Below the pieces are notes generated by a model. It ran no database searches and was not told where the DNA came from. It saw nothing but the letters and a program-made list of their open reading frames with translations. Positions 11,248 through 50,333 of a DNA stretch of 64,000 bases are shown in pieces (the first letter of the stretch is position 1; the number at the start of each line of letters is the position of its first letter). A program made the position numbers and the translations under genes. Location: assembly GCF_019264445.1 (NCBI RefSeq), contig NZ_JAHVAB010000084.1, positions 62,001 to 126,000 of the forward strand, read 5' to 3'. Source of the stretch: Hydrogenophaga sp. (GTDB lineage Bacteria > Pseudomonadota > Gammaproteobacteria > Burkholderiales > Burkholderiaceae_C).

Positions 11248-12702
11248 TCAGTAGGCGTTCTTGCCCACCAGCGCGCCGAGTGTTCGCACCAGGATGGTCA
11301 AATCCAGCCAGAGCGACCAGTTGTTGATGTATTCGATATCGGCCTCGATGCGCTGTTGCATCCGTTCGATCTCGATGGTCTCGCCGCGAAGGCCGCGTAC
11401 CTGGGCCAGCCCAGTGATGCCCGGTTTGATGTTGTGTCGCGCGAAGTAGGCGTCAATGCGTCGCGAATACTCCTCATCGTGCTGTACGGCATGCGGCCGT
11501 GGGCCCACCAGTGACATTTCGCCCTTGAGGACGTTGAACACTTGAGGCAGTTCGTCCAGGCTGGTCCGGCGCAAGAATGCGCCTACGCGGGTGACCCGTG
11601 GATCGTTGCGCTTGGCCTGTTGCACCACGCCCGCCTCGGGTTGGTGGACGAACATGCTGCGGAACTTCCAGATGTGGAATATCTTGCCGCTCCATCCTTT
11701 GCGAGCCTGTCGGAAGAAGATGGGCCCAGGACTGTCGAGCTTCACCGCGGCGGCGATGATCAGCAACAACGGCGAGATCATCAGCAGGATCAGGGACGCC
11801 AGCACAAAGTCTTCGACGGCCTTGAACAAGAGGCGGGTCCCCGTCAGCGGTGTTTCCGAGAGGGTGATGACAGGCAAGCCAGCGATTTCGCGCACGCTGT
11901 GATTGACCAGGAGCACAGAGAAAATGTCTGGAACCCAGTGCACCGCCACATGCCGGTCCAGCAGAACGAAGTACATGTCTTCGATCAGGTAGGACTCGCC
12001 CAGGGGGATGGCAAAGTACACGGTTCGAACGTCGTGGCGGTCGATCACGGCCAGCATTTCATCGAGCGGGCCGATGATGTTGGGCTCCTGAAGCATGGCA
12101 AAGTCGGAGGCTTCGTACAGGTGCGCGCCCGTTTCCCGTGAGCGCCCCTGATCGTTCGGGGAGAGCTCGAGGCACCCCACCACTTTTTGGTTGAGCCAGG
12201 GGTTGCCCGACACCTTGTGCTGCAGATACTTCGCCAGTTTGCCGGTGCCGACGATGAGCACGTTTTCTGCGGGGACGGCGTGCTGCATGATGCGGGTCTG
12301 CACCGCGCGGCTGATGAACTGCAGCGCCAGCTGCAGCACGTAGCCCGATACGTACAACTGCCCCAGAAGCAATCGGGAATAGGCCTCGGTCTGTTTGGTC
12401 ACGAAGCCCACGACCAGCAAAAGCCCATAAGCGAGGGACCACGCCTTGAAAAGCGTCAGCGCCTTGCGCGCCATGCTGCTGTTGCTGCGGTAGACGCCGA
12501 ACTGGTCGTAAGCGAATACCATCCCGATGCCGAGCAACAGAAGAAGAACCGAGTATTCGGCGGTGAGACCGCCAATCTGCTGACGAATCAGCAAGAAGGC
12601 CAATCCCATGACGGCCACAAGATCCAGAAGAGCCTGAACGGCCGTGGAGATGCTGCCGCGTCGTTTGAGGATGGACCGCAGGGGTCTCTTGGGTAGGGCC
12701 AT
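11248..12702 (-). CDS. Undecaprenyl-phosphate sugar-1-phosphate transferase (WcaJ/EpsL-like)
   Basis: A 484-residue polyprenyl glycosylphosphotransferase that starts a glycan repeat unit by placing a hexose-1-phosphate on undecaprenyl phosphate. The N-terminal half has four TM helices and a Rossmann-like domain (NVLIVGTGKLAK). The C-terminal half is the catalytic domain: a membrane helix, then FFRQARKGWSGKIFHIWKFR, RRTSLDELPQ and SLVGPRPHA. Glucose-1-phosphate is the usual substrate of this subgroup, but galactose is possible. The start is uncertain because a frame with alternative starts runs to 12774 and no start has a clear Shine-Dalgarno. It supplies the first step for the Wzx/Wzy genes at the other end of the locus. 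Confidence 0.88.
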   Translation of the reverse strand: MALPKRPLRSILKRRGSISTAVQALLDLVAVMGLAFLLIRQQIGGLTAEYSVLLLLLGIGMVFAYDQFGVYRSNSSMARKALTLFKAWSLAYGLLLVVGFVTKQTEAYSRLLLGQLYVSGYVLQLALQFISRAVQTRIMQHAVPAENVLIVGTGKLAKYLQHKVSGNPWLNQKVVGCLELSPNDQGRSRETGAHLYEASDFAMLQEPNIIGPLDEMLAVIDRHDVRTVYFAIPLGESYLIEDMYFVLLDRHVAVHWVPDIFSVLLVNHSVREIAGLPVITLSETPLTGTRLLFKAVEDFVLASLILLMISPLLLIIAAAVKLDSPGPIFFRQARKGWSGKIFHIWKFRSMFVHQPEAGVVQQAKRNDPRVTRVGAFLRRTSLDELPQVFNVLKGEMSLVGPRPHAVQHDEEYSRRIDAYFARHNIKPGITGLAQVRGLRGETIEIERMQQRIEADIEYINNWSLWLDLTILVRTLGALVGKNAY

Positions 12703-12835
12703 GGTCGCGAGTATAGGTGTGCGGTTGTGATGAAGAGACGTCTTGGAGCCCTCCAGGACGCCCATGCTTCCCAAACGTGCCGATGTTCACGTTTGCAGCG
12801 TCAGGCAGGTGGCGATGACGCCACGGCTGATCCGA

Positions 12836-13777
12836 TCAAAGCCGTTGTTGGACCCCCGTCTTGGGGTAGCGCGTGACGACCTCCCACACGGCTTCCTGCA
12901 TGGCGCGGGCGGTGAGTTCCTCCGGGGCTTTGGCGGTGGTGCCGTCGGCACGTTGCAGCCGATGGGGAAGGCCCACTGGGCTGCGGTGGTAGAGAACCGC
13001 ATAGTGGGTGAGGGCGACAAGGTAGTTGCCCAAGTCATTCAGATGGATGTTGTCCTGTGTGCCATCGGGATTGCGCGCGAACAGATCGTGGCGAGACGAC
13101 AGCCCCGGCATTCCGCCCGCCGCCTCGACGCGCCGAACAAATTGGGCCATCACCTGGCCTGCAGGAATGACATACACCGGTCCGCCGGTGTCGCCATGGG
13201 CCATGCCTTTGGCCAGCAGTTCGCCTTCCCAGTACTGGGTCAGGTCGTTGTCCAGCCGTTGCAGCCATCCTTGCCTGTCATCGAGGCTGTGCCAGGTCTC
13301 ATACAGATAAACGCGGGTGTCTGGGCGGTGCAGGCGCGCCTCACGCGACCACAGCCGCAGGTACTTGGGAGCGTCGAAATGCTCGATGGCGTCGCGAATC
13401 TCGACCATCTCGGTAAGGACGACGGCGTCAAACTCACCGCTGCGCACTGCTGCAAGCGCGTCCTGATAGCGAGGATGGGCGTTTTCCTGTTCAAAGCCGT
13501 TGATGGGTACGTCGGGCTCCCAATGTGACTTCAGCGAAGCGCCCCAACCGAGTTGCGACCGGTGGTCATGGCCCTGGCTGACCAGCTGCTCCAGCATGGC
13601 GGGCATGTCGCGGTTGACCAAACTGTGGCCCAGGTGAAAGACACGAAGTGCCTTGGTGGGGGGCGCCAGCGGCGTCGTGTACATCTGGTCGAGCGCATCC
13701 ACCGACAGGGACTTTTCGAATCCGCAAGCGCCAAGGGCCAACAAGAGCGCCAGCTTGGCAGAGCGCAGGTACAGCAT
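12836..13777 (-). CDS. Second SGNH-like lipoprotein, paralog of the protein at 9851
   Basis: A 313-residue protein with a lipoprotein signal (LALLLALGAC, Cys at about residue 18). Its domain matches the lipoprotein at 9851-11152: FHLGHSLVN near the start, LGWGASLKSH, VVLTEM, VYLYETWHS, and DNIHLNDLGNYLVALTHYAVLYHRSPVG near the end. It lacks the Pro-rich tether. The start at 13777 was chosen because it gives a proper lipobox; the open frame to 14239 runs back into the NRPS. It starts 38 bases after the NRPS stop on the same strand and may be co-transcribed with it. A deacylase or transacylase role on the locus product is an inference. Confidence 0.72.
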   Translation of the reverse strand: MLYLRSAKLALLLALGACGFEKSLSVDALDQMYTTPLAPPTKALRVFHLGHSLVNRDMPAMLEQLVSQGHDHRSQLGWGASLKSHWEPDVPINGFEQENAHPRYQDALAAVRSGEFDAVVLTEMVEIRDAIEHFDAPKYLRLWSREARLHRPDTRVYLYETWHSLDDRQGWLQRLDNDLTQYWEGELLAKGMAHGDTGGPVYVIPAGQVMAQFVRRVEAAGGMPGLSSRHDLFARNPDGTQDNIHLNDLGNYLVALTHYAVLYHRSPVGLPHRLQRADGTTAKAPEELTARAMQEAVWEVVTRYPKTGVQQRL

Positions 13778-13815
13778 GGTGTGTGGTTCTCCGAGCCTGT
13801 GCAGCGAAAGGCCGC

Positions 13816-16800
13816 CTATCCAACGCCTTGCGGCGTGACCGCGAGGTTGTCGCGCTGCGCGCCCGCCAAATGGCGACTCAAGTGGATGGCCAGTTCCGAC
13901 ACATTGGGCATTTCCAATATGTCGGCGTGTTTGCCCGGCACGCGTTCGATCACGATGTGGCTGGCCAGCGCATCCCATCCATAGGCGGCCTGTGTGGAGC
14001 GATCTCCTGCGGCCTGGAAGAAGGCCACAGGCATTTCGCTCGGCTGGGCCTTGTGCTGCCGGATGGCCTGTGCATACACCTGATTGCGACGCCCGCCGGG
14101 TAGTTCCCGCGCGGCATGCAGTTGGGATGCCTGACGGTACAGGTGCATGACGTGCTTCCAGCCGTCTTGTCTGAGCATGCGCCAACGCCGCGCGATGCCC
14201 GCCTTCAGATGTTTCCATCCGCGACCCGGGAATGCGCAATCGAGCATGACCAGCAACCCGATCTTCTCCCCCGCTTGCATCAACCTTTGCGCGACTTCAT
14301 AGGCGAGCACGCCGCCGATGGAGAACCCACCGAGGTAATAGGGACCATGCGGCTGCTGAGCTCGGATGAGTTCCACATAGGCACCGGCCAGCGTGTCGAT
14401 CGAATAGGGCGGCAGAGGGCTCTCCACAGGCAACTCGAGAAGATCAATCTCCTCCTGGGAAAAGAGGCCGTAGACGGGCATGTCGACCGTGATCTGGCGC
14501 GCCAGTTCGCGGTACATCTCGGCGCCAGCCAGCAAGAAAAGCCCGTGCGGTTGCTGCGACGGCCGCAGCAAGGCCATCGATTTGTCGCGCTCCTGACCAT
14601 GGCTCTCAAGTTGCCTAGCCATACCCATGATCGTCGGCTGCTCGAACACCATGGTCAGCCAGACAGGCCGTTGGAATTCGGTTTCCATCCGCCGGATCAT
14701 TCGAACAGCGAGCATCGAATGCCCGCCGAGGTCGAAGAAGTTGTCGTCGATACCGATGTGATCGTTCTGCAGCAATTCTTGCCAGATGGGCAACAGGCGC
14801 CGCTCGGTTTCGGTGCGAGGCGCCTGGCGGCGGCCTTTCGGGATGGCACGGGCACTCGGGCGCGGCAATGCCTGGCGGTTGATCTTGCCGTTGGGGAGCA
14901 CGGGCAAGGCAGACACCTGTTCGATCTGCGACGGCACCATGTGTTCGGGCAACCACTGACGCGCTGTCACCCGAAGGGCATCAAGATCCATCGGTCCATC
15001 GGGCGCCACCAGGTAGGCCACCAGACGCTGGTCACCGGGGCTGTCCTCGCGAACGACCGCCACGCAACGCTGCACGCCAGTCTGGCTGGCCAGAAACGCT
15101 TCGATTTCACCGAGCTCGATGCGAAACCCGCGCAGCTTGACCTGATCGTCCAATCGTCCGCCGTGTTCAAGGGAGCCGTCGTAGCGCCAGCGGCCTCGGT
15201 CTCCCGTGCGATAGCAGCGCTGTTCCTTGAGCTCTGGAATGTGTTCCAGCGTGCGGAAGCGCTCTTCGGTCAGCTCCGGGCGTTGCCAGTAACCATCTGC
15301 GACGCCATCGCCGCCGATCCAGATCTCACCCCACGCACCCACAGGCTGGAGATGGCCAAGCTCGTCCAGAACCAGGATCTGCGTGTTGTCGATCGCCCGT
15401 CCGAGGGAGGTCGGCGTGTCAGCCTCGACCTGCCAGCAGGTGGACCAGACCGTCGTCTCGGTCGGGCCGTACATGTTCCACACCTGGTCGCAGCGCTGCA
15501 GCAGTGCACTGGCGAGCGTCGGCGGCAGGGGCTCCCCGCCGACCAGGGCGCGCAAGCCGGGGGTCTTGCCCCAATCGGCCTCGAGCAACAGGTGCCAGCG
15601 CGAGGGCGTGGCCTGCATCACAGTGACGGCATGCGTGTTGATCAACCGCTTCAAGGCCGCACCGTCGGTGGCTTCCTGGTCTGAGGTCAGCACCACGGTA
15701 GCTCCCACGCTCAATGGCAGCAGCAGTTCAAGCACCGCAATGTCAAAGCCCAGCGTGGTGACGGCGAGCACCCGGTCGCCTGGCCGCAGTCCCGGTTCGC
15801 GGGCCATGCTGACAAGAAAATTGACGACGGCCGCCTGCGGCACGCACACACCCTTGGGACGCCCCGTCGAGCCGGACGTGTAAATCAGGTAAGCCGGCCC
15901 GTGTTCACCGCCGGATTCCAGGGGGGTGGCAGCGGGTACGCTGGTCCAGTCCTGATCCAGGTACAGGCAGGGCGTCTGTGCCATCCGGCTTGGGGTCAGG
16001 GTGGCTGTCGTACCGATGATCAGGGTGAGGCCCGCGTCTTCGATCTGATAGCGAATGCGGTCTTCGGGGTAGGTGGGATCCAGCGGGACATATGTTGCGC
16101 CGCTGCGGATCGTGGCCAGGAGCGCGACGACCAACTCCACCGACCTGGGCAGACACAGCCCAATGCGGCTGCCTGGGCCAAACCCGCGTGTGCGCAAGTG
16201 GGTTGCCAGTTTGCGCGAAGCCTCGTCCAGCTCGGCGTGAGTGACGCGCTGCGCTCCGAACACCAAAGCGATGGCGTCCGGGTTGATCTGCAGACCCTGC
16301 TCGAGGCAGGCTGCCAGCGAGGTGTCCGCCGTGCGTCTCGCCGGGCCTTCACCCCATGCGAGGAGTTGCTGACGGTGCGCGGGGAGCAGCGGGTCCCATT
16401 GCGATACGGCTTTGCTGCTGAACGCTTCGACCGAGTGCAGCATCAACAGCAACTGCTCGCCCATGCGCCTCACCGAATCGGCTTCGAACAAGTCCGTGGC
16501 GTATTCCAGAACGATGGAGTGGTCAAACTGCGGATCGACCACCACGGTGAGGTCGACCTGCGACGCGCGTCGATCCACATCGACGCGAGACCAAGTGCTG
16601 CCACCGAAGTCCACCTCTCGCACAGGCGTGCTCACGAGGTTGAACATCACATTGAACAGGGGGGGCTGCGAGGGCTCGCGCTGGTGATCGAGGGTGCGCA
16701 CCAGCAGCTCAAACGGCAGATCCTGATGCTCGTAGGCCCCCAGAGCTGCCCCTTTGACGCGGCGAAGCACTTCCGTGAAGTCCGGGTCGCCATCGAGCGA

Positions 16801-19761
16801 AGTCCTGATCACCAGAATGTTCACCAGCGTGCCAATGAGGTTCTCGCAACCCGGGTGATGGCGGTTGGCAATCGGCATGCCGACAGCGAGATCGGTCTGG
16901 CCGGTGTGCTTCAGCAGAAACACCTTGAACAGGGCCAGCAAGGCCATGGCCAGGGTGGCGTCTTGTTGTGTCGCCAGTGATGCCAGTGCATCGGTCAATC
17001 CCGCTGGCAGTGGCAGGCGAATGCTCGCTCCGCGAAAGCTGGCCTGACGCGGGCGGGGGTGGTCGGGGACCAGGGCGACAGGTCGCATCCCCTCCAGGCG
17101 CCGGCCCCAGTACGCGATTTCCTGCCGCTGGCGTTCGGTCTCAAACCATTGGCGGTGCCACCGGCTGTAAACGGCGTAACGTGGGGGCGGGCCAGGCAGC
17201 ACCGGTTCGACGCGGGCCATTGCCTGCCGATAGGCAGAGCTCAGGTCTTTGCCGAGCACAGAAAACGACCATTGGTCGGCCACGATGTGGTGCAACACCA
17301 TCAACAGAACGTGCTCTTGCGGACCCAGGCGAATCAAGGTCGCGCGCATCAGTGGCCACTGGTCCAGCGCGAAGGGGGGATGGCTCAATTCACTCAGGAC
17401 CGCCGCAAGAGCAGCTTCGTCCGTGCCTTCTGCTTGGCCAGGAAGATCCAGCAGCGCCAATTGAAAGTGACCGTCCTCGACCACGTTGGCCGCAAGACCC
17501 TGGTCGGTGGCGACAAAGCGCGTTCGCAGAATCTCATGGTGTTTCACGACCACCTGGAAGGCCTTTTCGAGGGCTTCAGGTTGTACGGTGCCTCGCAGCC
17601 TGAGGGCCAGAGGCACGTTGTAGGCGCTGCTCGCAGGCGCCATGGCCTGCATGAACCACATGCGCTCCTGCGAGTAAGAGAGCTGCGTCGACGTTTGCAG
17701 TTCCAGCGGATTGAAGGTGAGTTCCGTTTCGTTGCTGAGGGCCTGCGCCGGATGGGCCTGACCATCCTGAAGTGCGCCGAGAGCCTTGGCCATGCCATGC
17801 AGCGTGGGATCGGCGAACAATGTGGAGATGGGCATTTCCACCCCCCAGTGCTGGCGAACGCGCGACAGCAACTGGGTGCCCGTCAGCGAGTCGCCGCCGA
17901 GCCGCAAGAAGTGCGCGTCAGCGGGCACGTGGGGCACGTTGAGCACGTCGGCCCACAGCGGCGCGAGCTGGCTCATGAGCCGTTCGGTGGCGGCGCTGGT
18001 CTCGCGAGCGACCGGCGATGCCTTGAGCTGGTGGGCGGTGAGCTCACCCGACAGATACATGCGCTTGGCTTCGCGTCGCTGCAGCTTGCCGCTGGACGTT
18101 CGAGGCAGCGTGCCGCCACGCAAGAGCATGACGTCGAGCAGGTCGACTTCGTGGGCTTCGGCGATGTCGCGGCGCAAGTCGGCCTGCAGCTGCTCCAGCT
18201 CACTCGCAGGGAGCTGGTTGCGGCACTCGACCAGCAGCACCACCCGCTCATGACCGGCATGTTCCACCGGACAGGCGATAGCGCCTTTGGGGCGCACCCA
18301 TTTGGATGCCGCGAGGGCGGTTTCCTCCAGATCTTGAGGATGGATGTTGCGCCCGTGGATGATGATCAGATCGCTGTGGCGGCCGGTGACAAAGATTTCA
18401 CCGTTCTTGAAGAAACCGAGGTCACCGGTTCTCAGAAAAACGTTGTCACGGTCTTCTTCTGCGAGCTGGCCGCCGAAGCGCTCTCTGGACGCGTCGGGCT
18501 GATTCCAGTAGCCACGCCCCACGCTGGGACCGCGCACCCAGATTTCGCCGACCACGTGAGGCGCACATGGCACGCGGGTTTGCGGATCGACGATGCGCAC
18601 GTCCAGTCCTGGCAGCACGTGCCCACTGCCTACCAGTTCCCTCGACCCTTCGGCCCCTGCAGGCAGCTCGTGAACCTCACGCAGCTCCTCCATCCTGAGC
18701 CGGTCCACCGAAATGATCTGGGGCGCCGCACGAGAGTTGCCGAGCGACACAGCCAGAACCGCTTCAGCCAGTCCATACGACGGGGAGAACGCTTCGGGCC
18801 GGAAGCCACTTGGCGCGAAAGCCTCGGCAAACTTTCGCAGGGTGTTCGGGCGGATGGGCTCGGCTCCGCACGAGGCGAGCTTCCAGTGCTGAAGCGAAAA
18901 CGTCGCGTCGGGATAGCGGGCGAGCGCGTTGACGCAGGCTTCGTAGGCGAAATCGGGGGCTCCGCTGTTGGTGATGCCGTGGCGTTCAATGGCTTCAAGC
19001 CAGCGCAATGGCCGGATCAAAAACTGCTGAGTCGACATCAGGAAAGAGGTCGATCCATGGTGCGCGGGTACGAGCAAGCCATGCACCAGGCCGTAGTCGT
19101 GGAACCACGGAAGCCATGTCAGCGTTCGGTCGAGGGCTGAATCGATATCGGCAACCTGAATGACGGATTCGCACTGCGCCATCATGTTGTCGTGCGTGAT
19201 CTGTGCCCCACGGGGCTGCCCCGTTGACCCCGAGGTGTACTGCAGGTACCCCAGATCGTCTCCAGTGATCGGGCGCTCAGGCGCATCGCTGGGCAATGGG
19301 ACGGGAGGCGTGCCGCGCCAGTCGCCCAGACGGTCCAGCGTCGACCATTTCACGTGTGGCGCGTTGATCTCGGCTGCACCGATGTGCTCGCCGCGTGTGA
19401 AGGCCATGGAGACCTGGGCGTCATCGCACATTGAAAGCAGTCTGCGCCAGCTCAGCTTGGAGCGGCGCGCATCGGGTGCTGGTGCGGGTACGGCCACCAC
19501 GCCAGCCACGATGCAGCCCCAGAACAGCAGCACGGCATCGATGCAGTTGTCGTAGGCGAGGAGCACACGGTCGCCTCGCTTGACAGATTTCAGCAACGAT
19601 GCAGCGATCGTTTGGGCCGCGTTGGCGAGCTCTCCGTAGGTGAGCGTTTCTGCGGGTTGAAGATCGGCTTGCAGAAAAACCAGGGCGAGCTGATCCTTGA
19701 ACTGCTCAGACCTTTGGAGGATAAGGCTTGCAAAGGTGGACAAGGGGGTACTGGAGTTCAC
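13816..19761 (-). CDS. Lipopeptide NRPS: FAAL-PCP-C-A-PCP-TE
   Basis: A 1981-residue megasynthase that can both start and finish a chain. Residues about 1-590 are a fatty-acyl-AMP ligase (YTSGSTGQPRGAQ near 178), which activates a fatty acid for direct transfer to the carrier. A first carrier domain has its Ser in LGGDSLTG near 624. The condensation domain shows HHIVADQWS near 825. The adenylation domain has YTSGSTGRPKG near 1294 and a pocket code I read as D-I-L-Q-L-G-M-V-W-K, glycine-like by analogy and tentative. A second carrier (LGGHSML near 1680) and a thioesterase (GGFSIGG near 1812) follow. The start is GTG at 19761. Predicted output is a fatty acyl amino acid or a peptide with further units added in trans. 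Confidence 0.9.
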   Translation of the reverse strand: MNSSTPLSTFASLILQRSEQFKDQLALVFLQADLQPAETLTYGELANAAQTIAASLLKSVKRGDRVLLAYDNCIDAVLLFWGCIVAGVVAVPAPAPDARRSKLSWRRLLSMCDDAQVSMAFTRGEHIGAAEINAPHVKWSTLDRLGDWRGTPPVPLPSDAPERPITGDDLGYLQYTSGSTGQPRGAQITHDNMMAQCESVIQVADIDSALDRTLTWLPWFHDYGLVHGLLVPAHHGSTSFLMSTQQFLIRPLRWLEAIERHGITNSGAPDFAYEACVNALARYPDATFSLQHWKLASCGAEPIRPNTLRKFAEAFAPSGFRPEAFSPSYGLAEAVLAVSLGNSRAAPQIISVDRLRMEELREVHELPAGAEGSRELVGSGHVLPGLDVRIVDPQTRVPCAPHVVGEIWVRGPSVGRGYWNQPDASRERFGGQLAEEDRDNVFLRTGDLGFFKNGEIFVTGRHSDLIIIHGRNIHPQDLEETALAASKWVRPKGAIACPVEHAGHERVVLLVECRNQLPASELEQLQADLRRDIAEAHEVDLLDVMLLRGGTLPRTSSGKLQRREAKRMYLSGELTAHQLKASPVARETSAATERLMSQLAPLWADVLNVPHVPADAHFLRLGGDSLTGTQLLSRVRQHWGVEMPISTLFADPTLHGMAKALGALQDGQAHPAQALSNETELTFNPLELQTSTQLSYSQERMWFMQAMAPASSAYNVPLALRLRGTVQPEALEKAFQVVVKHHEILRTRFVATDQGLAANVVEDGHFQLALLDLPGQAEGTDEAALAAVLSELSHPPFALDQWPLMRATLIRLGPQEHVLLMVLHHIVADQWSFSVLGKDLSSAYRQAMARVEPVLPGPPPRYAVYSRWHRQWFETERQRQEIAYWGRRLEGMRPVALVPDHPRPRQASFRGASIRLPLPAGLTDALASLATQQDATLAMALLALFKVFLLKHTGQTDLAVGMPIANRHHPGCENLIGTLVNILVIRTSLDGDPDFTEVLRRVKGAALGAYEHQDLPFELLVRTLDHQREPSQPPLFNVMFNLVSTPVREVDFGGSTWSRVDVDRRASQVDLTVVVDPQFDHSIVLEYATDLFEADSVRRMGEQLLLMLHSVEAFSSKAVSQWDPLLPAHRQQLLAWGEGPARRTADTSLAACLEQGLQINPDAIALVFGAQRVTHAELDEASRKLATHLRTRGFGPGSRIGLCLPRSVELVVALLATIRSGATYVPLDPTYPEDRIRYQIEDAGLTLIIGTTATLTPSRMAQTPCLYLDQDWTSVPAATPLESGGEHGPAYLIYTSGSTGRPKGVCVPQAAVVNFLVSMAREPGLRPGDRVLAVTTLGFDIAVLELLLPLSVGATVVLTSDQEATDGAALKRLINTHAVTVMQATPSRWHLLLEADWGKTPGLRALVGGEPLPPTLASALLQRCDQVWNMYGPTETTVWSTCWQVEADTPTSLGRAIDNTQILVLDELGHLQPVGAWGEIWIGGDGVADGYWQRPELTEERFRTLEHIPELKEQRCYRTGDRGRWRYDGSLEHGGRLDDQVKLRGFRIELGEIEAFLASQTGVQRCVAVVREDSPGDQRLVAYLVAPDGPMDLDALRVTARQWLPEHMVPSQIEQVSALPVLPNGKINRQALPRPSARAIPKGRRQAPRTETERRLLPIWQELLQNDHIGIDDNFFDLGGHSMLAVRMIRRMETEFQRPVWLTMVFEQPTIMGMARQLESHGQERDKSMALLRPSQQPHGLFLLAGAEMYRELARQITVDMPVYGLFSQEEIDLLELPVESPLPPYSIDTLAGAYVELIRAQQPHGPYYLGGFSIGGVLAYEVAQRLMQAGEKIGLLVMLDCAFPGRGWKHLKAGIARRWRMLRQDGWKHVMHLYRQASQLHAARELPGGRRNQVYAQAIRQHKAQPSEMPVAFFQAAGDRSTQAAYGWDALASHIVIERVPGKHADILEMPNVSELAIHLSRHLAGAQRDNLAVTPQGVG

Positions 19762-41084: not shown

Positions 41085-42083
41085 CTATTTGTATTCGATG
41101 AGCCGCCCGGAGCGTCCCAGCAGCTTGGTCAAGCCGAACTTGAGCACGCCCTGGGCTTCGGCAAACTTCCCGGCCACGCTGAAAAAAGCCAGGGCCGGCG
41201 ATCTGGTGCGAAAGGCGAGGCGAGCCCACTGCAAGGGATAGAGCAATGCCAGTGCGGCTGCACGAGGGTCGACTCCAACGACCAGGCCGGCAATCGCGAT
41301 AGGCAGAAGCAGTCCCCAAAGTACCGTGCGCGTCGTTTCTCGTACCCAGTGACGTTCGGGAGATGCGCCGTGCAGCCATGCGCCTTCGGCAAACGCGTGG
41401 CCTGCTCGCACGGTGCGGCGCCACCACTGTCCCCATCGGGTGATGGCAGCGTCGTGTCGCGTCATCTCGATATCCAACCGATGAATGCGCCACCCTTTTC
41501 TGCGCAGCCGCACGCACAACTCAGGCTCTTCTCCGGCAATCAGTTGGTCGCGATAACCGTTCACCTGAACCAGCGCATCGACGCGCATCAGCGCATCACC
41601 TCCGCAACTCAGCGCGTCGCCGATCGGGGTGTCCCATTCGAGATCGCACATCTGGTTGTAGATCGACGCCTCTGGATGACGTTCTCTGCGGCGGCCACAC
41701 ACCACGGCACAGTCCGGATGGGCATCGAGATACCGGCTCGCTTGATCGAGCCATCCTGGAACCACTTCACAGTCGCCATCAATAAACTGCACGTAGCGCG
41801 TTTGCGGGTGGGCATTGATCAGGAGGCGGTAGCCGGCATTTCGGGCGCGTGCAGCCGTAAAAGGTATGGCCATATCCAGGGCGAGCACCTCAGCCCCCAG
41901 ACCCTGAGCCATCTGCACCGATCCGTCGGTGGATCCCGAGTCCACGTAGACGGCTGCGGCAATAAACGGCACCACGGATTCGAGGCACACGCGCAGCCGA
42001 TCACCTTCATTGCGACCGATGACCACGGCACCTACGGACGGTGTGGGTCGCACTGTGTCGTTGTCGGAGTGTGGGGTATTCAC
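41085..42083 (-). CDS. Family 2 glycosyltransferase with C-terminal membrane segments
   Basis: A 332-residue GT-A enzyme. VGAVVIGRNEGDRLRVCLES, YVDSGSTDGS, FIDGDCEVVPGWLD (DxD equivalent DGD), CGRRRERHPEAS and GEEPELCVRLRRKGWRI mark the catalytic domain, and two hydrophobic stretches follow near the C-terminus. The start is uncertain. GTG at 42083 or GTG at 42053 both fit and neither has a clear ribosome binding site; the open frame to 42251 has no family-like residues. It is probably the first gene of the leftward glycosyltransferase run. Confidence 0.82.
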   Translation of the reverse strand: MNTPHSDNDTVRPTPSVGAVVIGRNEGDRLRVCLESVVPFIAAAVYVDSGSTDGSVQMAQGLGAEVLALDMAIPFTAARARNAGYRLLINAHPQTRYVQFIDGDCEVVPGWLDQASRYLDAHPDCAVVCGRRRERHPEASIYNQMCDLEWDTPIGDALSCGGDALMRVDALVQVNGYRDQLIAGEEPELCVRLRRKGWRIHRLDIEMTRHDAAITRWGQWWRRTVRAGHAFAEGAWLHGASPERHWVRETTRTVLWGLLLPIAIAGLVVGVDPRAAALALLYPLQWARLAFRTRSPALAFFSVAGKFAEAQGVLKFGLTKLLGRSGRLIEYK

Positions 42084-42301
42084 GATGTGGGCCAATCTGT
42101 TTGACTCGAGTCCGAGGAGGTCCCACCCAGTGTGTGGTTGTAAGCGCCATTGATGCGGTCCGTCCGGCGTCTGCTCACGCGACGCAGAGACTTTCGGGGT
42201 ACACCAAGAAAGCGGATGTAGTGTGCCATCGCAACGCACGGCGCCACCCAAGCGCAGCGGCTTCGCTCAAGCCGAATGAGGAGTTGTGTGACTTTGTTGC
42301 C

Positions 42302-42865
42302 TCAGGAGTCGAGGCGGGGTGCCGGCGGAGGTGCTTTCGGCGGCAGACAACGTGCGGGAATGCCAATGGCCGTGTGGCGTGCGGGCACATCCTGCAGCAC
42401 GACCGCATTCGCACCGATCACGGCATGCTCTCCCACGAAGACGGGTCCCAACAACTTGGCCCCCGCACCGATGTCGACGTGACCCGCGATGACAGGTGTT
42501 CCACCAGAAGCCAGTGTGCCTAGCGTGACCTGCTGAAAGATCAGGCAGTTGACGCCGATGCGAGCGTCAGGGTGGATCACGATGCCATTCGGGTGCGGGA
42601 GCAGGAGACCACCGCCAATCTGGCAGTTCACAGGGATGTCTGCGCCCGTGAGCGCGCTCCAGAAGCGGTGCCGGGCGGTGGCCCACAGGCGCAACGGATA
42701 CAACCAGGCGCCTCCGCTGCGCCAGCGCTGGTGGTCGCGAATGCTCTTCAACAGGCGCTTGCCAGGATTCCATTCCCCCGGGGCCAGTTGTTCGCGCTGC
42801 CAGTCGGGGGCTGAGGCGCTCAAGGGTTCGGCGGGCTGCTTGGGGTCATTCATCGCGACATTCAT
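42302..42865 (-). CDS. Hexapeptide-repeat O-acetyltransferase (serine acetyltransferase-like)
   Basis: A 187-residue left-handed beta-helix protein. Hexapeptide turns run from about residue 95 (IGGGLLLPHPNGIVIHPDARIG, VNCLIFQQVTLG, PVIAGHVDIGAGAKLLGPVFVG, AVIGANAVV) to the end, with the catalytic-type His in HPNGIVI. In CysE this fold acetylates serine, but such short versions in glycan loci (WcaB-like) usually acetylate sugars. The two lipoproteins with SGNH folds could act in the opposite direction. The start is ambiguous (TTG 42883, ATG 42865, ATG 42853). Confidence 0.82.
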   Translation of the reverse strand: MNVAMNDPKQPAEPLSASAPDWQREQLAPGEWNPGKRLLKSIRDHQRWRSGGAWLYPLRLWATARHRFWSALTGADIPVNCQIGGGLLLPHPNGIVIHPDARIGVNCLIFQQVTLGTLASGGTPVIAGHVDIGAGAKLLGPVFVGEHAVIGANAVVLQDVPARHTAIGIPARCLPPKAPPPAPRLDS

Positions 42866-43144
42866 CCTTGCATCTGCCTGCAAAGTGCCCGGTGCTTGGG
42901 GGCGGATATTCTGTTGACCACGTTCAAGAAGTGCAGGCGCGGATTGTGTATCTATTCACACCAGTTGCTACCAGCATTGGTTTAACATCCTCTGCGTAGC
43001 AACAAATTGTGACACGGCCCATGCGAGATGCAGTGCATCTTACTCATGCTGTCGTCGCGTTGATCACGTTGCGTCATCGTTTCAGTCTGAAAGAGCCGCA
43101 CTGGGCTGCCGCACCGGTCGTTCACATACCTAGGAATATCCAAC
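42866..43144. promoter_or_regulatory. Divergent region upstream of the export operon
   Basis: These 279 bases separate the acetyltransferase gene from the rightward export operon. The stretch 42930-43010 is A/T-rich compared with its surroundings and contains a GTGT-N8-ACAC inverted repeat around 42945-42960, so it is the likely control region for 43145-50333. I could not fix a -35/-10 pair. AGGA upstream of 43145 is the ribosome binding site. Confidence 0.4.
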
Positions 43145-43705
43145 ATGAAATCTGCACTGCAATCGATCCTGTTCTTGTGGCTGCTTCTTGTCGGTGCATC
43201 CGCAGGGGCGCAGTCCGCCACACCCTACCAGCTGCGTCATGGAGACGCGCTGACCGTGTCGGTTTGGAAGGAAGAGGCGCTGCGCATGGAAGTGCGTGTG
43301 TTGCCCGATGGGAGCATCACGTTTCCTTTGGCCGGTCGTATCGAGGTTGCGGGACTGACGACCCCTCAAGTGGAGCAGCGCATCACCAGCAAGATCAAGG
43401 AGTACATCCCTGAAGCGGTGGTCACCGTTGCGGTGACGGGTATCGACGGCAGCCGCGTTTATGTGCTGGGCAAGGTGGCCACTCCTGGGCTCGTGACGCT
43501 GATGTCGCCATCCACCACGGTTCTGCAGGTGCTCAGCCAGGTGGGCGGTGTGGACCGGTTCGCGGACGCGAACTCGATCCGGGTGTTGCGCCAGACCAGT
43601 GGTGGGTCCACGGTCTTGCCAGTGCGCTACAACGATTTGATGCGCGGCAGCTCTCTGGAAACCAATGTGGTTCTGCTGCCCGGTGACACGATTCTGGTGC
43701 CTTGA
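43145..43705 (+). CDS. Wza-like polysaccharide export protein (EpsE type)
   Basis: A 186-residue exported protein with a Sec signal peptide (cut after about GASAGAQS). It then has a polysaccharide biosynthesis/export domain (YQLRHGDALTVSVWKEEALRMEVRVLPDGSITFPLAGRI) and a SLBB-like domain (VYVLGKVATPGLVTL, VLQVLSQVGG). It lacks the C-terminal amphipathic helix that forms the Wza pore, so the outer membrane channel may need the beta-barrel protein encoded next. It opens the export operon. Its TGA falls within TTGAACATGATG, just before the next start. Confidence 0.88.
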   Translation: MKSALQSILFLWLLLVGASAGAQSATPYQLRHGDALTVSVWKEEALRMEVRVLPDGSITFPLAGRIEVAGLTTPQVEQRITSKIKEYIPEAVVTVAVTGIDGSRVYVLGKVATPGLVTLMSPSTTVLQVLSQVGGVDRFADANSIRVLRQTSGGSTVLPVRYNDLMRGSSLETNVVLLPGDTILVP

Positions 43706-43707
43706 AC

Positions 43708-44802: not shown

Positions 44803-44813
44803 AGGCGATATTC

Positions 44814-46355
44814 ATGTTTGGTGACTACCAGCTCAGTCTGCACGACTACCTTTCGATCTTGCGCCGCCGGGCGCTGGTCATGATTTTGGCGTTTGGGGCC
44901 GTTCTTGCCGCATCCGTTGTCCTCGCGTTCGTGTTGCCGCGGATCTACGAGTCGACAGCGACCATATTGGTAGAGGGGCCGCAGGTGAAGGTCGCCGTGG
45001 AAGACGGCGCTGCGCGGCCGCGGCCAGAGGATCGCGTCAACCTCATCCGCCAGCGGTTGATGACCCGTGAGAATCTGACGCGAGTTGCGGAAGAGCACCA
45101 GCTTTTCACCGGTGGCGGTGAGAAGCGGCTTTCTGACACCGATGTGGTCAAAGCGATGCGCGCAAGCATCAAGCTCGAACTGATGCGGGGAGCCGCTGAG
45201 CCTTGGGATGCAAGACCGTCTGCCATCTCCTTCAATCTGTCTTTTCAGCACGGAGACGCTGAGAAAGCACTCGCGGTCACCCGTGAGCTGGCCAACATGT
45301 ATCTCGCCAGCAACCGCCAGGATCGCGTGGACAAGGCTTCGCGGACCACGGAATTCCTGACCGCCGAGTCCGAGCGTGTTCGCAAGGAGCTTGAGTCGCT
45401 TGAGTCGAAGATCGCGACTTTCAAGTCTCAGCAGGGCGGAGCAATGCCCGACAGCGCGGCATCGAGCCTTGTGGGATTGCCGAGCCTCGAAGCCGACCTG
45501 CGCAATGTCGAACGGGATCACCGCCTGGCACTCAATGAGTTGCGCTCGTTGCAGGTGGACTTGAGCGCCGCCAGACGCGGTGTGGTGGCTCCTGGTGCTG
45601 GCGCAGAGGTCGGTCCAAGCCAAACGGAGCAAGAGCTCGAGCGCGCTCGAACCGAGCTTGCCGGACTGCGGGCCATTTATTCCGACAACCACCCCGATGT
45701 GCGATCGCTTCTTCGGCGAATCCCCAGCCTTGAACAAGCCGTGAGCAATGAATCACGCGCGCAGACGCCAGCGCGCAATGCGGCACGTGAGCAGGCCAGC
45801 CTGGCGATTTCTCGCCTGGAAGCGCAGGTGGAGGCGGCCCGGTCAAGGGCGGATTTGCTGGCCAGCCAGCAGTCGTCTCTGAGGGGCAGCATCGGGCAGC
45901 TTCGCGCACAAGCCGCGAGGGCGCCTCAACTTGAACGCCAACTGGCCGTGCTGCAGCGCGACTACGAAGCAGCGAAAGCCAAGTACGAAGAGCTGCGCAC
46001 CCAGTTGTTGTCTGCCCAGGTGGTGGAGAACCTCGAAGGGGGGCAGCAGGCCGAAAAGTTCACGTTGCTTGAACCGCCTTTGCTGGCCGAGTATCCCCTC
46101 AAGCCCAACCGCAAAAAGGTGGTGGCAGCCGGCTTCTTCGCCGCGATTGTCGCTGCCTTGGGTGTGGCCTTCCTGCTGGAAATGTTGCTCGCACGCGTGT
46201 GGGGTGCCAACGCATTGACCGTCGCGGTGAACCAGCAACCGCTTGCGGTGATCCCGTACATCGACATCAATGCAGACGGTTCAGCCGTCGGAACATCTCG
46301 CGAACGCTCGGTCTTTGCGACGTTAATGGGTGCATTCCGCACCAGAACGCGCTGA
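44814..46355 (+). CDS. Wzz/GumC-type chain-length determinant
   Basis: A 513-residue polysaccharide co-polymerase. TM1 lies at residues about 18-40, a long periplasmic coiled-coil region runs to about 400 (ESERVRKELESLESKIATFKSQ, LEAQVEAARSRADLLASQQ), the conserved Pro-rich segment LLEPPLLAEYPLKPNRKK leads into TM2 near 440-460, and a short cytoplasmic tail follows. It sets chain length together with the polymerase and is paired with the separate tyrosine kinase downstream, as in systems where Wzc is split in two. AGAGGCG precedes the ATG. Confidence 0.9.
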   Translation: MFGDYQLSLHDYLSILRRRALVMILAFGAVLAASVVLAFVLPRIYESTATILVEGPQVKVAVEDGAARPRPEDRVNLIRQRLMTRENLTRVAEEHQLFTGGGEKRLSDTDVVKAMRASIKLELMRGAAEPWDARPSAISFNLSFQHGDAEKALAVTRELANMYLASNRQDRVDKASRTTEFLTAESERVRKELESLESKIATFKSQQGGAMPDSAASSLVGLPSLEADLRNVERDHRLALNELRSLQVDLSAARRGVVAPGAGAEVGPSQTEQELERARTELAGLRAIYSDNHPDVRSLLRRIPSLEQAVSNESRAQTPARNAAREQASLAISRLEAQVEAARSRADLLASQQSSLRGSIGQLRAQAARAPQLERQLAVLQRDYEAAKAKYEELRTQLLSAQVVENLEGGQQAEKFTLLEPPLLAEYPLKPNRKKVVAAGFFAAIVAALGVAFLLEMLLARVWGANALTVAVNQQPLAVIPYIDINADGSAVGTSRERSVFATLMGAFRTRTR

Positions 46356-46395
46356 GTTTTGTTATCTATCGCCTAGACTGAGGAACGGTCGTTTA

Positions 46396-47238
46396 ATGGA
46401 ACGCATCAAAGAGGCCATCGAGAAGGCCAAGAACCAGAGCCCTGTGCGAGAGCAGTCTGCGCCGTCCGCGCGGAATCCGGTTGCTGCCAAGCCGTTCAAA
46501 TCTTCCGCGACCGAGTTGCCCGCGGCATTGGACACGGAAATACAGTACAGGCAAACGCCTGTGGTGCAGCTGGATATGGCGCATCTTGAGCGGCATCGCA
46601 TCGTCGCCCATCAGAAGTTGCATCCTGCTTCTTGGGCGTTTGACTTTCTGCGAACGCAGGTTCTTCAGAAGATGGATGAAAACGGCTGGCGAACGCTCGC
46701 CGTGACCTCGCCCACCATGGAGTCGGGCAAAACCGTCGTCGCCATCAACTTGGCCATCGGTATTGCGCAACAAACCAACAGAACCTCCCTTCTGGTCGAC
46801 TTTGATCTGCGCCGACCACGCGTCGCCAGCATGCTTGGCCTGCAGCGGGACGTGTCGCTGAATCAGGTCTTGGCGGGGCAGGCCCGCGTGGATGAGGCCA
46901 TGGTGAATCCTGGCATCCCACGTTTTGTGGTGCTGCCCACGCAGAGACCCGTACCCAGCTCCGCAGAACTGCTGGGGTCGAGTCGTGTGGGTGCGCTCAT
47001 GGGAGAGCTGCGCGAAAACTACGCAGATCGGATTGTGGTGGTCGACTTGCCACCGGTTTTGGCGGCCGACGATGTTCTGGCGCTGCTTCCGAGAGTGGAC
47101 TGCGTGCTGATGGTGGTGGGCAATGGCGTGTCCACCAAGAAGGAAATCGAGGAGGCCATGGGTCGGCTCTCGAAGTTTCACCTGTTGGGTGTGGTGCTCA
47201 ACAAGGACGATGCACCTGTCAGGAACTCCTATTACTGA
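46396..47238 (+). CDS. CpsD/CapB-type bacterial tyrosine autokinase
   Basis: A 280-residue cytoplasmic BY-kinase. Walker A is SPTMESGKTVVAINLA near residue 110, with a GK dipeptide and deviant glycine pattern. Walker A' is LLVDFDLRRPRV, and Walker B is RIVVVDLPPVLAADD. The last residues are NSYY, a minimal tyrosine cluster for autophosphorylation. Residues 1-75 are a basic, poorly ordered region that may contact the chain-length protein. The start at 46396 is preceded by AGGAACGG. The frame extends to 46330 but that overlaps the previous gene. Confidence 0.88.
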   Translation: MERIKEAIEKAKNQSPVREQSAPSARNPVAAKPFKSSATELPAALDTEIQYRQTPVVQLDMAHLERHRIVAHQKLHPASWAFDFLRTQVLQKMDENGWRTLAVTSPTMESGKTVVAINLAIGIAQQTNRTSLLVDFDLRRPRVASMLGLQRDVSLNQVLAGQARVDEAMVNPGIPRFVVLPTQRPVPSSAELLGSSRVGALMGELRENYADRIVVVDLPPVLAADDVLALLPRVDCVLMVVGNGVSTKKEIEEAMGRLSKFHLLGVVLNKDDAPVRNSYY

Positions 47239-47346: not shown

Positions 47347-48855
47347 GTGCCTGAGCATATACGCGCGCTCATCGTTGTGCTTGTGCTGAGCACAACGGTG
47401 TGGTGGATCGTCCGTCCAGCCATCGTGCAGATCATCCCTGCAGCCACGTTTGCACGGTGGCGGGTGCTCTGGTATGTGACGACGTTGGCGTGGTTCCTCG
47501 CGCACAGCTTCTGGATCTACGTATGCGTGATGGTCATTGCGCTGATGGTGGTCGGTCGGCGAGAGGTGCATGCCTTTGGCCTCTACCTGTTGCTTCTGCT
47601 CGCGGCACCTCCGGCGGCGGCGCCCATTCCCGGCATGGGCGTCATCGACCACCTGTTCATCCTGGACCACTACAGGCTGCTGGCGCTCGCCTTTCTTCTG
47701 CCCTGTGCCTGGCGCCTGGCAATGGAGTCGTCGGCAAGGCCTTACTCCAAGACGCTGGTTGACTGGTTGGTTGTCGGCTACCTGGTTCTCAACACGGTGT
47801 TGAGCTACCGTGAAGGGAACTTCACCAGTGACACGCGCGCGGCGTTCTTGCTCTGGATCGACTTCTTTTTGCCCTACTACGTGGCGAGCCGGAGCATCAA
47901 GGATGCCGAGGGCTTCCGTCACGCTCTGGCGGGGTTGGCGCTGGGGGGTGTCTTGCTCTCAGTCCTGGCTGCCATCGAAGTGCTGCGCAGCTGGAAGCTC
48001 TACGAAGCAGCCACCGCAGCGCTGGGGCTGCATACGTTCGGTGCTTACAAGACGCGAGGTATTTTCATCCGGCCCGCAGTCACCGTCATGGATTCGATTG
48101 TGGTGGGGTATGTGGTGGTGGTGGCTGCAGGTGGCTACCTCTACCTGCAGAGCCTGATTGAAGGCCGAGCCAAACGCTGGCTCGGCTGGCTCGGCCTGAC
48201 CGTTGGCGTGCTCGCGTGTCTGTCCCGGGGACCATGGGTGGGAGCCATGCTGCTGCTTTTCGTTTTCTTGCTCACGAGCGCAAACCCTGTCAAACGCATG
48301 CTGCAAGGCGCTGTGGTGGGAGCGTGTCTGCTATTGGCGCTGTCTGCCACGGACTTCGGCCAGCAGTTGATCAACTTGCTCCCGTTCATTGGCAGCCAGG
48401 AGCAGGACAACGTGGAGTACCGAGCCGATCTTTTGAACGTTTCGCTGATCGTGATCGAACGCAACCCTCTTTTTGGCGCATCGGATTTCATGTCTGCCCC
48501 CGAGCTGGAGGTCATGAGACAGGGGGAGGGCATCATTGACATTGTGAACAGCTACCTCGGCGTCACCTTGCATGCCGGACTGGTCGGGCTGAGCCTGTTT
48601 GTCGGCATGTTCTTGGGTGCCTTGCTGAAGCTCAGGCGTGGCATGCGCTGGGCCCGTCAATTCAAGGACACAGACGGGCTGCTGCTCGGTCGGGCCTTGC
48701 TGGCGTCTGTGATCAGTGTCATGTTCATCATTTTTACCGTCAGCGGAATCACGGCAGTGCCCACCATTTATTTCTCTTTGGTGGGCATCTCATGCGCGTA
48801 TTTCGCCGTGCAGAAATCCAAAACCAGAGTCCACCAGATGCGTGAACGTCGATGA
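47347..48855 (+). CDS. Wzy-like O-antigen polymerase/ligase family protein
   Basis: A 502-residue membrane protein with about twelve hydrophobic segments and one long periplasmic loop (residues about 345-405, GSQEQDNVEYRADLL to NSYLGVTLHAGL). It has the loop Arg, Asn and His residues that mark the O-antigen ligase/polymerase family, and a preceding CLSRGPWVGAM segment. It should polymerise lipid-linked repeat units on the periplasmic side. The start is GTG at 47347, 108 bases after the kinase gene. It overlaps the flippase start by 4 bases. A ligase role cannot be excluded from sequence alone. Confidence 0.82.
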   Translation: MPEHIRALIVVLVLSTTVWWIVRPAIVQIIPAATFARWRVLWYVTTLAWFLAHSFWIYVCVMVIALMVVGRREVHAFGLYLLLLLAAPPAAAPIPGMGVIDHLFILDHYRLLALAFLLPCAWRLAMESSARPYSKTLVDWLVVGYLVLNTVLSYREGNFTSDTRAAFLLWIDFFLPYYVASRSIKDAEGFRHALAGLALGGVLLSVLAAIEVLRSWKLYEAATAALGLHTFGAYKTRGIFIRPAVTVMDSIVVGYVVVVAAGGYLYLQSLIEGRAKRWLGWLGLTVGVLACLSRGPWVGAMLLLFVFLLTSANPVKRMLQGAVVGACLLLALSATDFGQQLINLLPFIGSQEQDNVEYRADLLNVSLIVIERNPLFGASDFMSAPELEVMRQGEGIIDIVNSYLGVTLHAGLVGLSLFVGMFLGALLKLRRGMRWARQFKDTDGLLLGRALLASVISVMFIIFTVSGITAVPTIYFSLVGISCAYFAVQKSKTRVHQMRERR

Positions 48856-50333
48856 GCTCATCCCCTGAGCCAGGCACCGCTGAGGCGCCTGCACCGCAAA
48901 GTTTTGGTGGTCGTGCACGATCCGGAACGCTCTGGATTGTGGCGGGCTTCGGGCTTGGGCAATTTTTGCGACTGGCTGCCAATGTCGTCCTTGCCTCGAT
49001 CCTGTTCGAGGAAGTTTTTGCCCTCATGGCCATCGTGCTTGCCGTGATGATGGGATTGGCCATGTTCTCGGACATTGGCTTGCAAACCAACGTCGTCCAG
49101 CACCCCCAGGGCGATGAGCCCGATTTCCTGAACACGGCGTGGACCCTTCAGGTGGTGAGGGGCATCCTTCTCTTTCTTGTCGCAGTTGCACTCGCGTGGC
49201 CGCTCTCGCGTTTTTACGGTGCGAACGACCCGAAAGCCTATGAGCTGCTCTACCTCATCCCTATCGTGGCACTGACGTCGCTGATCGATGGCCTGCAATC
49301 AGCCAAGGTCATGACCGCAGCCAGGCATTTGCGAATCAAGGAGGTGACCAAGATCGAGTTTCTTGTCGTGCCCTTCAACATGGGCGTGATGTTGCTGCTC
49401 GCCTGGCACTACCGGTCCGCCTATGCGTTGGCTGTGGCATCCGTGTTGTCTTCTGTACTCCACACGGTGCTCACCTACCAGATGCTGGAAGGCGCCAGAT
49501 CCCGATTCCGCTGGGCTCCTGAGGTGGTGAAGACCATCATCTCTTTTGGGAAGTGGGTGTTTCTGAGTACGTTGCTGACCTTCTTGGCCATTCAGCTGGA
49601 TCGCTTGGCGTTGCCGCGAATATTCAGCTTGGCCGAAGTGGGGGTGTATTCCATCGCTGCGAGCCTGGCGGTGATCGTGCCCACGCTGGCGGGGAAGCTG
49701 CAGTGGAGCGTGCTGTTCCCCTGGTACTCCCGAATGCTGGAGGAGGGCATGTCATTGCCCGAGGCGTTCGGGCGCACGCGCACGGCCATGATGGCGTCGT
49801 CCAGCTTCCTCTGCGCCTTGCTGGCTTCGGGTGCGTCCAGCTTCTTTGCGCTGGCCTACGACACCCGCTACACCATGGGTGGCATGCTGCTGCCCATCCT
49901 GGCGTGTGGCGCTTGGTTCAGCTGCCTGGAGACGATGTACGGGGCCACTTTTGTGGCGGCAGGCCGGCCCAAATGGTCCGCCCTTAGCAATGCGACCAAG
50001 GTCGCGACCTTCGCGTGCCTGCTGCTCCTTGTTGCGGTGTTTGACCTGAATATTCTGGTGGCAGCGTCCTTCCTGACATTGAGCGAGTTTTTGCGTTGGC
50101 TGGTCTGCCATGTGCTTGGGCGCCAGCTGGGCTTGCGCAACGCCCGATCCGAGATCGGCATGTTTGTTGTTTTCTTGGCCGTTTCGCTCGCCGGTTGGTG
50201 GCTGGTCGAGCATGCACCACTCATCTCAGACTTGAAGCCGTTCTGGCGGCTCGCCGTGTTGGGCGTCGTGGTCACGCTGTTGTTTGCGCCTTTGTTCGTG
50301 CGGTTTTTGCTGCCGCTTGTCAGAAGGCGGTGA
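48852..50333 (+). CDS. Wzx-like oligosaccharide flippase
   Basis: A 493-residue polytopic protein with twelve to fourteen TM segments. It has the MATE/MOP-superfamily start GRARSGTLWIVAGFGLGQFLRLAANVVLA, LQTNVVQ, and QLDRLALPRIFSLAEVGVYSIAASL in the middle, the usual helix 7-8 pattern of Wzx proteins. It moves lipid-linked repeat units to the periplasm. With the sugar-1-phosphate transferase, the chain-length protein, the kinase and the polymerase it completes a Wzx/Wzy pathway. It is the last gene of the operon; a terminator-like hairpin follows at 50384. Confidence 0.87.
   Translation: MSSSPEPGTAEAPAPQSFGGRARSGTLWIVAGFGLGQFLRLAANVVLASILFEEVFALMAIVLAVMMGLAMFSDIGLQTNVVQHPQGDEPDFLNTAWTLQVVRGILLFLVAVALAWPLSRFYGANDPKAYELLYLIPIVALTSLIDGLQSAKVMTAARHLRIKEVTKIEFLVVPFNMGVMLLLAWHYRSAYALAVASVLSSVLHTVLTYQMLEGARSRFRWAPEVVKTIISFGKWVFLSTLLTFLAIQLDRLALPRIFSLAEVGVYSIAASLAVIVPTLAGKLQWSVLFPWYSRMLEEGMSLPEAFGRTRTAMMASSSFLCALLASGASSFFALAYDTRYTMGGMLLPILACGAWFSCLETMYGATFVAAGRPKWSALSNATKVATFACLLLLVAVFDLNILVAASFLTLSEFLRWLVCHVLGRQLGLRNARSEIGMFVVFLAVSLAGWWLVEHAPLISDLKPFWRLAVLGVVVTLLFAPLFVRFLLPLVRRR

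Follow-up and report, generated by a model that had tools for sequence, protein, structure and literature searches.

A conserved NRPS-PKS cassette in exopolysaccharide loci of alpha- and betaproteobacteria that may supply a small acyl group to the glycan

The stretch analysed here, called the window, is 64,000 nucleotides of a Hydrogenophaga sp. contig (NZ_JAHVAB010000084.1, positions 62,001 to 126,000) in a genome of 4.43 Mb, and at this locus its nearest named relatives are Hydrogenophaga. Open reading frame calls read with Pfam and NCBIfam profiles show a full Wzx/Wzy exopolysaccharide (EPS) locus at 11248-50333. Within it lies a leftward block that contains three megasynthase genes: a type I polyketide synthase (PKS, 27549-34016) and two nonribosomal peptide synthetases (NRPSs), one fronted by a formyltransferase (FT-NRPS, 21911-26539) and one by a FAAL domain (FAAL-NRPS, 13816-19761). 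The block also has its own 4'-phosphopantetheinyl transferase (PPTase) and two glycosyltransferases (GTs), of families GT2 and GT4. In coordinate order, with two domains of the FT-NRPS on their own lines, it consists of the following.

11248..12774, minus strand: WcaJ-type undecaprenyl-phosphate sugar-1-phosphate transferase, the initiating enzyme (TIGR03023, 477 bits, cut-off 411; Bac_transf)
12836..13777, minus strand: SGNH-fold lipoprotein (SGNH_B), probable esterase/acyltransferase
13816..19761, minus strand: NRPS with domains FAAL-PCP-C-A(Gly-like)-PCP-TE and A-domain code DILQLGMVWK; a lineage-specific accessory line, judged by presence and absence in relatives
20011..21192, minus strand: GT4 family glycosyltransferase
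21189..21908, minus strand: Sfp/EntD-type PPTase (4PPT_N and ACPS)
21911..26539, minus strand: core FT-NRPS, with formyltransferase, residual region without a Pfam match, A(Gly-like) with luciferase-like monooxygenase insert, PCP and a conserved basic tail
23156..24208, minus strand: the MupA/Atu3671-type luciferase-like monooxygenase insert, residues 778-1128 (TIGR04020, 485 bits, cut-off 244)
25643..26539, minus strand: the formyltransferase domain, residues 1-299
26566..27552, minus strand: GT2 family glycosyltransferase of the core
27549..34016, minus strand: type I PKS, KS-AT-KR-DH-ACP-TE, from domain profiles and active-site motifs
34078..34992, minus strand: AAA_22 ATPase of 'XrtA-associated' type (TIGR03015, 276 bits, below the cut-off of 324.5)

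Transcription would run from the ATPase gene through PKS, GT2, FT-NRPS, PPTase, GT4, FAAL-NRPS and the SGNH lipoprotein to WcaJ, with gaps of 61, -4, 26, 2, -4, 249, 38 and 61 bases; the two negative values are 4-base overlaps at PKS/GT2 and PPTase/GT4. The first-pass annotation had the genes, overlaps and coordinates of both the block and the export set right, and correctly placed the block between the WcaJ-type transferase and a Wza/Wzz/BY-kinase/Wzy/Wzx set. The remaining genes of the locus include a WecG protein, a DUF1996 protein, a PA14 protein, three further GTs, a hypothetical gene and a serine-acetyltransferase-like gene, all of which lie between the block and the export genes.

35196..35948, plus strand: WecG/TagA/CpsF glycosyltransferase (PF03808, E 3.2e-34)
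38437..39474, minus strand: GT2 glycosyltransferase
39297..40502, minus strand: GT4 glycosyltransferase, EpsE-like, below cut-off
41085..42251, minus strand: GT2 glycosyltransferase
42302..42883, minus strand: serine-acetyltransferase-like EpsC homologue (NF041874, 121 bits, cut-off 150)
43145..43705, plus strand: Wza-type polysaccharide export protein (Poly_export and SLBB)
44814..46355, plus strand: Wzz-type chain-length protein (PF02706 above cut-off; TIGR03007 210.6 against a cut-off of 278.85)
46330..47238, plus strand: BY-kinase-type ATPase (TIGR03018/TIGR01007, below cut-offs)
47347..48855, plus strand: Wzy-type polymerase / O-antigen ligase family (PF04932, 47 bits, cut-off 31.7)
48852..50333, plus strand: Wzx-type flippase (PF13440, 128 bits, cut-off 23)

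An initiating sugar-1-phosphate transferase, GTs, Wzx, Wzy, Wzz with BY-kinase, and Wza are thus all present together, as expected of a Wzx/Wzy EPS locus.

The linkage of megasynthases to EPS genes is repeated in other genomes. When 398 genomes were drawn evenly from the Pseudomonadota, this one included, an FT-type match was found in 14 of the 397 others, and 11 of the 14 had a PKS and an FT-NRPS side by side. Each of these 11 pairs has EPS markers of at least three classes no further than about 20 kb away. For comparison, ten control windows of 40 kb were taken from seven of these genomes; none had two or more markers and one had a single marker. Named genomes scanned with the FT-NRPS yielded 48 loci, 38 of them with the pair, and at least one EPS marker was present in the fetched flank of 35 of the 38; the three pairs lacking one were L013 and L040, both on contigs shorter than 11 kb, and L047. 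L031, L039 and L043, which have a piece of the FT-NRPS but neither PKS nor EPS marker, were left out of the 38. No EPS marker was found in seven unrelated NRPS/PKS loci (L049-L051, L053-L056), five of which are shorter than 15 kb.

The pair also lies beside polysaccharide genes on plasmids of Ruegeria, Parasedimentitalea, Paracoccus, Aminobacter, Shinella and Neorhizobium, accompanied by varying sets of sugar transferases, flippase, WecB, Wza or Wzy. The PKS and FT-NRPS are divergent in Aminobacter and Shinella, and the Shinella GT2 relative lies at a distance of about 17 kb. As gene order differs among carriers, the EPS linkage survives rearrangement. The core GT2 was also used alone as a query on 250 genomes of the family, our own included. 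Five other genomes matched, and in three of these a PKS (43-51% identity) and FT-NRPS adjoined; the 45-60 kb read there also contained further GTs and one or more genes for flippase, Wzz, Wza, Wzy or initiating enzyme. Of the other two, G209 has its match among EPS genes with no PKS within 17 kb, and G115 has no other marker within 20 kb. Because EPS loci may be favoured by the very use of a GT as query, this evidence bears on the PKS and NRPS and not on the EPS genes.

These counts support the view that the megasynthases are part of the EPS locus, as the first-pass annotation had proposed, and that the linkage is not chance. The observation which that annotation had named as speaking against it, most relatives having the block but no EPS genes, was looked for and did not occur. 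It could still be argued that two independent pathways are merely adjacent here, through chance neighbourhood or the assembly of an island, as the distribution is patchy (two genomes of the same genus had no match to the GT2 at E 1e-60) and there is a phage-type integrase at the border of the locus. The recurrence of the linkage across many genera and several gene orders, the absence of two markers from any of the ten control windows and the seven marker-free unrelated loci, short as five of them are, make this explanation very improbable.

The active-site motifs of the PKS and the FT-NRPS are intact. The PKS retains the KS Cys/His/His, AT GHSMG, KR GGLGGIG and YVAAN, DH GHRTASGQALLP (with a spacing one residue longer than usual) and HPALLD, ACP GGHS and TE GFSGG motifs, and so has the make-up of a type I cis-AT module. 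Its AT specificity motif, read by eye as IAAH, decides nothing on the substrate; IAFH was taken as a malonyl-type motif for another PKS, according to the part of PMC3908369 available. The PPTase presumably arms the carrier domains of the block. PF01648 has two matches in the genome, this enzyme and a 150-aa frame that is AcpS-like by size. The SGNH_B lipoprotein has the Ser and D-x-x-H of the SGNH fold.

A structure model and fold search showed that residues 1-299 of the FT-NRPS are filled by a full formyltransferase fold. In an alignment of 120 rows, the FT-NRPS of the window and its 119 nearest full-length relatives, the N/H/D residues of the formyltransferase and the Ser of the PCP were kept in every row. 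The A-domain code was DILQMGMIWK, or differed from it by one or two similar residues, throughout; compared with the glycine signature DILQLGLIWK, it is predicted to specify glycine. The enzyme therefore appears to combine two known arrangements, an LgrA-like formyltransferase with N/H/D in front of A-PCP and an MtaG/MelG-like TIGR04020-type monooxygenase set between motifs a4 and a5 of a Gly-like A domain. There is no HHxxxD motif in the whole protein, no Pfam Condensation match and no chain-accepting condensation domain upstream of A. We considered whether residues 300-530 might be the back half of a condensation domain, and rejected this: a single comparison gave a weak collinear trace (E 0.02, probability 2.4), BLAST gave no collinear match, and the results of a fold search with a 545-residue model were taken up by the formyltransferase. 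With no HHxxxD and a formyltransferase fold over residues 1-299, the FT-NRPS looks like a loading module unable to take a lipid.

The FAAL-NRPS is distributed differently from the other two. Among the 11 evenly drawn loci the PPTase was found in ten, the GT2 in nine and an SGNH protein in seven, and some of the Rhodobacterales loci have SGNH relatives close to the core. In Hydrogenophaga and Rhodobacterales this core consists of PKS, GT2, FT-NRPS and PPTase, often with an SGNH protein; in Rhizobiales it is rearranged. The FAAL-NRPS is present in six named Hydrogenophaga loci (L009, L014, L015, L016, L018 and L019), and L011 has a 46% relative cut by the end of the flank. It was not found in L010, L012, L017 or L037 within the stretch examined, and L010, L017 and L037 are Hydrogenophaga-type loci that do have WcaJ and the SGNH gene. 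The named Rhodobacterales loci gave no match to a FAAL-PCP-C-A-PCP-TE orthologue; the match of this class in L067 is a C-A-PCP-TE NRPS, and those in G422, G507, G118, G212 and Neorhizobium are about 29-30% identical and, where a length is given, about 510-535 residues long. The FAAL-NRPS is thus a local, lineage-specific add-on.

The first-pass annotation had also joined the three megasynthases into one line making a glycolipopeptide, or a 'formylated, oxidised lipopeptide'. This is not supported. The PKS and the FAAL-NRPS each end in their own thioesterase, the FT-NRPS lacks HHxxxD, and the FAAL-NRPS is missing from L010, L017 and L037. With two thioesterases and no working condensation domain in the FT-NRPS, a single formylated lipopeptide is unlikely, and we rejected it as the main reading.

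The fatty acid that the FAAL-NRPS brings in at some loci might instead point to a lipid-like or acyl anchor or primer, placed at the reducing end or the cell surface and not as a decoration of the repeat unit. RkpA has a role of this anchor or primer type. Capsule loci in Burkholderia and Rhizobium contain type I PKS genes, wcbR and rkpA (PMC3908369). We think an anchor or primer unlikely here, as the core has no fatty-acid-loading domain, a FAAL-NRPS orthologue was not matched in the named Rhodobacterales loci, and having just one KS in a glycine-loading line suggests a short chain.

The conserved cassette probably serves the EPS pathway by making a small oxidised acyl group that is set on the glycan. 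The genes, domains and intact motifs are seen directly, as is the linkage across alpha- and betaproteobacteria; the substrate, the product and its place on the glycan are inferred. The FT-NRPS would load glycine and formylate the glycyl group on the carrier, and the embedded flavin monooxygenase would hydroxylate its alpha carbon. In the pathways to solanimycin B, myxothiazol and melithiazol, glycine modules with such a monooxygenase are described as hydroxylating the alpha carbon (PMC10204066); in SolF the insert lies between a8 and a9. Either the N-formyl-alpha-hydroxyglycyl group would then be kept, or formamide would leave and a glyoxylyl group be passed on; the domain order suggests that the PKS would take this starter, add one (or a few) malonate units, reduce and dehydrate. 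Its thioesterase would release a small oxidised acyl group, to be attached to a repeat-unit sugar before Wzx flips and Wzy polymerises. The co-encoded GT2 may handle the acceptor or the acylated sugar, and the SGNH lipoprotein may trim or move acyl groups on the polymer outside the cell. In this Hydrogenophaga the FAAL-NRPS may add a second, separate N-acyl-glycine group.

A more speculative version, which we consider unlikely, is that the formyltransferase and the embedded monooxygenase act together to remove the nitrogen of carrier-bound glycine: N-formyl-alpha-hydroxyglycine gives formamide and a glyoxylyl thioester, which the PKS extends to an unsaturated aldehyde acid of the 4-oxocrotonyl type. 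Such a reactive decoration would make a self-crosslinking EPS matrix, and the carriers would represent a widespread, unrecognised class of EPS.

Several points tell against the idea of a glycan-bound acyl group made by a cassette of the EPS pathway. Thioesterases usually hydrolyse or cyclise, no acyltransferase passing the acid to a sugar was identified in the core, and no polymer or metabolite structure was found for any carrier of the pair. Nine of the 11 evenly drawn pairs, though from nine genera, belong to one family, so the independent events are fewer than the count. The three remaining FT-type matches of that draw (G276, G446 and G549; 34-38% identity) are not a PKS and FT-NRPS pair, and EPS markers are absent from the sequence seen around the G446 and G549 matches, although two of the three G446 places are on contigs shorter than 10 kb; in G276 a different NRPS adjoins the PKS, with WZA, WECG and INIT matches about 20 kb from it. 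WecG is the sole marker in 11 of the 35 marked named loci (L011, L019, L020, L021, L022, L024, L025, L028, L036, L044 and L052). The positions of initiating enzyme and flippase were looked up genome-wide, on contigs without names, for nine loci. They lie 2-6 kb past the flank in L021, L022, L024, L025 and L028, 2 and 8 kb past it in L019, and 6 and 17 kb past it in L011, with coordinates that fit the same contig in each case; for L030 their placement relative to the locus was not decidable. The matches for L047 do not fit its contig, and this locus has no EPS marker; upstream of its PKS are an Acyl_transf_3 protein and a sub-cut-off Wzy_C protein, with housekeeping-type genes on the other side. 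The Myxococcota fragments L039 and L043, about 11 kb each, have neither PKS nor EPS markers.

A second reading of the same cassette is that its product is a small molecule, free or glycosylated, secreted into the matrix, the genes being inherited together with those for EPS through a shared biofilm life. Regulation, Und-P-linked sugars or the exit through Wzx/Wza might perhaps be shared. PKS and NRPS lines that end in a thioesterase normally release free acids or lactones, and the PPTase and two GTs of the block would suffice for a glycosylated natural product. Yet none of the 11 evenly drawn pairs is found away from EPS genes, and no natural-product-type exporter recurs in the loci read; exporter-like genes are single cases, with TolC seen in Aminobacter and a set of type I secretion genes in Shinella. 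In the window itself the open reading frames tested, from 9.7 to 50.3 kb, gave no match to an ABC, MFS or RND exporter, leaving Wzx/Wza as the sole export route seen. A free molecule is the less likely of the two, and we favour a group carried on the glycan.

No description of this gene set was found in the open-licence literature, where most subscription papers are missing. The nearest precedent known to us is the RkpA/WcbR-type PKS of capsule loci, where a type I PKS gene likewise sits inside a polysaccharide synthesis and export cluster (Burkholderia wcb, Rhizobium rkp). The available part of PMC3908369 mentions no FT-NRPS partner for it, whereas here, comparing by description only, a hybrid NRPS-PKS with its own PPTase lies in Wzx/Wzy loci. 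The myxothiazol and melithiazol glycine modules share a Gly-like A domain with a flavin monooxygenase between a4 and a5 (PMC10204066); they end the chain and leave an amide, whereas the module here appears to start a line, with a formyltransferase in front, a PKS adjoining and an EPS locus around it. In myxothiazol and melithiazol synthesis these modules belong to MtaG and MelG.

LgrA of linear gramicidin, which also has a formyltransferase ahead of an A-PCP module, was among the solved matches of both halves of the FT-NRPS. The formyltransferase here, however, matches Fmt and ArnA with better scores than LgrA and shows the complete fold of those two enzymes; in addition, the Gly-like A domain carries an oxygenase insert, and a PKS is the partner. 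The best solved relative of the monooxygenase insert is the oxygenase domain of PuwE from puwainaphycin synthesis (6ket, E 1.5e-101), which belongs to a cyanobacterial lipopeptide pathway, unlike the glycan locus here. The Wzz, kinase and ATPase of the window score best with XrtA-associated families, all three below cut-offs. The XrtA/PEP-CTERM system that these family names suggested was rejected, as the genome has no PF09721 (exosortase) match.

Other observations concern the genes themselves and their surroundings. The PKS is split over two open frames in L015:4630-11137 and over five in L046:4776-11142, where decay and assembly error could not be told apart. In L014, which is Hydrogenophaga flava NBRC 102514, both PKS and FT-NRPS are complete open frames. 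Outside the alpha- and betaproteobacteria, the FT-NRPS pieces of L039 and L043 are 52-61% identical to that of the window. G446 has three distant formyltransferase-NRPS genes (C131, C157 and C159; 31-35% identity), perhaps an ordinary metabolite cluster. In Paracoccus Arc7-R13 a C-A-PCP-TE NRPS lies beside WecB, and in the cyanobacterium Gloeothece (L070:13866-18978) the genes for a C-A-PCP-TE NRPS and a relative of the core GT2 have 8 bases in common, beside a PEP-CTERM run; these hint that the transfer of single-module NRPS products to glycans may be more widespread. On the outer side of the WcaJ gene, 9701-11152 encodes a second GHSL-motif protein, with a lipobox-like stretch followed by a long proline-alanine linker, which has a 44% relative in the diverged locus L071. 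Within the EPS locus the DUF1996 protein (36367-37689) also has a proline-alanine-rich linker, and a PA14-domain protein is encoded at 37706-38344; the Ruegeria locus L065 has PA14-domain proteins too. The phage-type integrase comes right after Wzx and is followed by a Res-type restriction enzyme, a DNA methylase, DUF6988, a GmrSD-type nuclease and a UvrD-like helicase, so that 50632-64000 looks like a defence island adjoining the EPS locus.

Our results suggest that the EPS of these alpha- and betaproteobacteria carry an undescribed decoration built from an amino acid and a polyketide, the work of a small assembly line of a type usually met in antibiotic synthesis. If this is true, a few per hundred Pseudomonadota species (11 of the 397 sampled) make polysaccharides with a group built by a hybrid NRPS-PKS. 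Structural work on EPS, which looks for sugars and simple acyl groups, could miss it, and so could natural-product genome mining, in which the cassette would be counted as an orphan metabolite cluster. The PKS, the formyltransferase/oxygenase-NRPS and the GT2 provide a marker gene set for the choice of strains, and a concrete test case for how non-sugar groups reach bacterial glycans.

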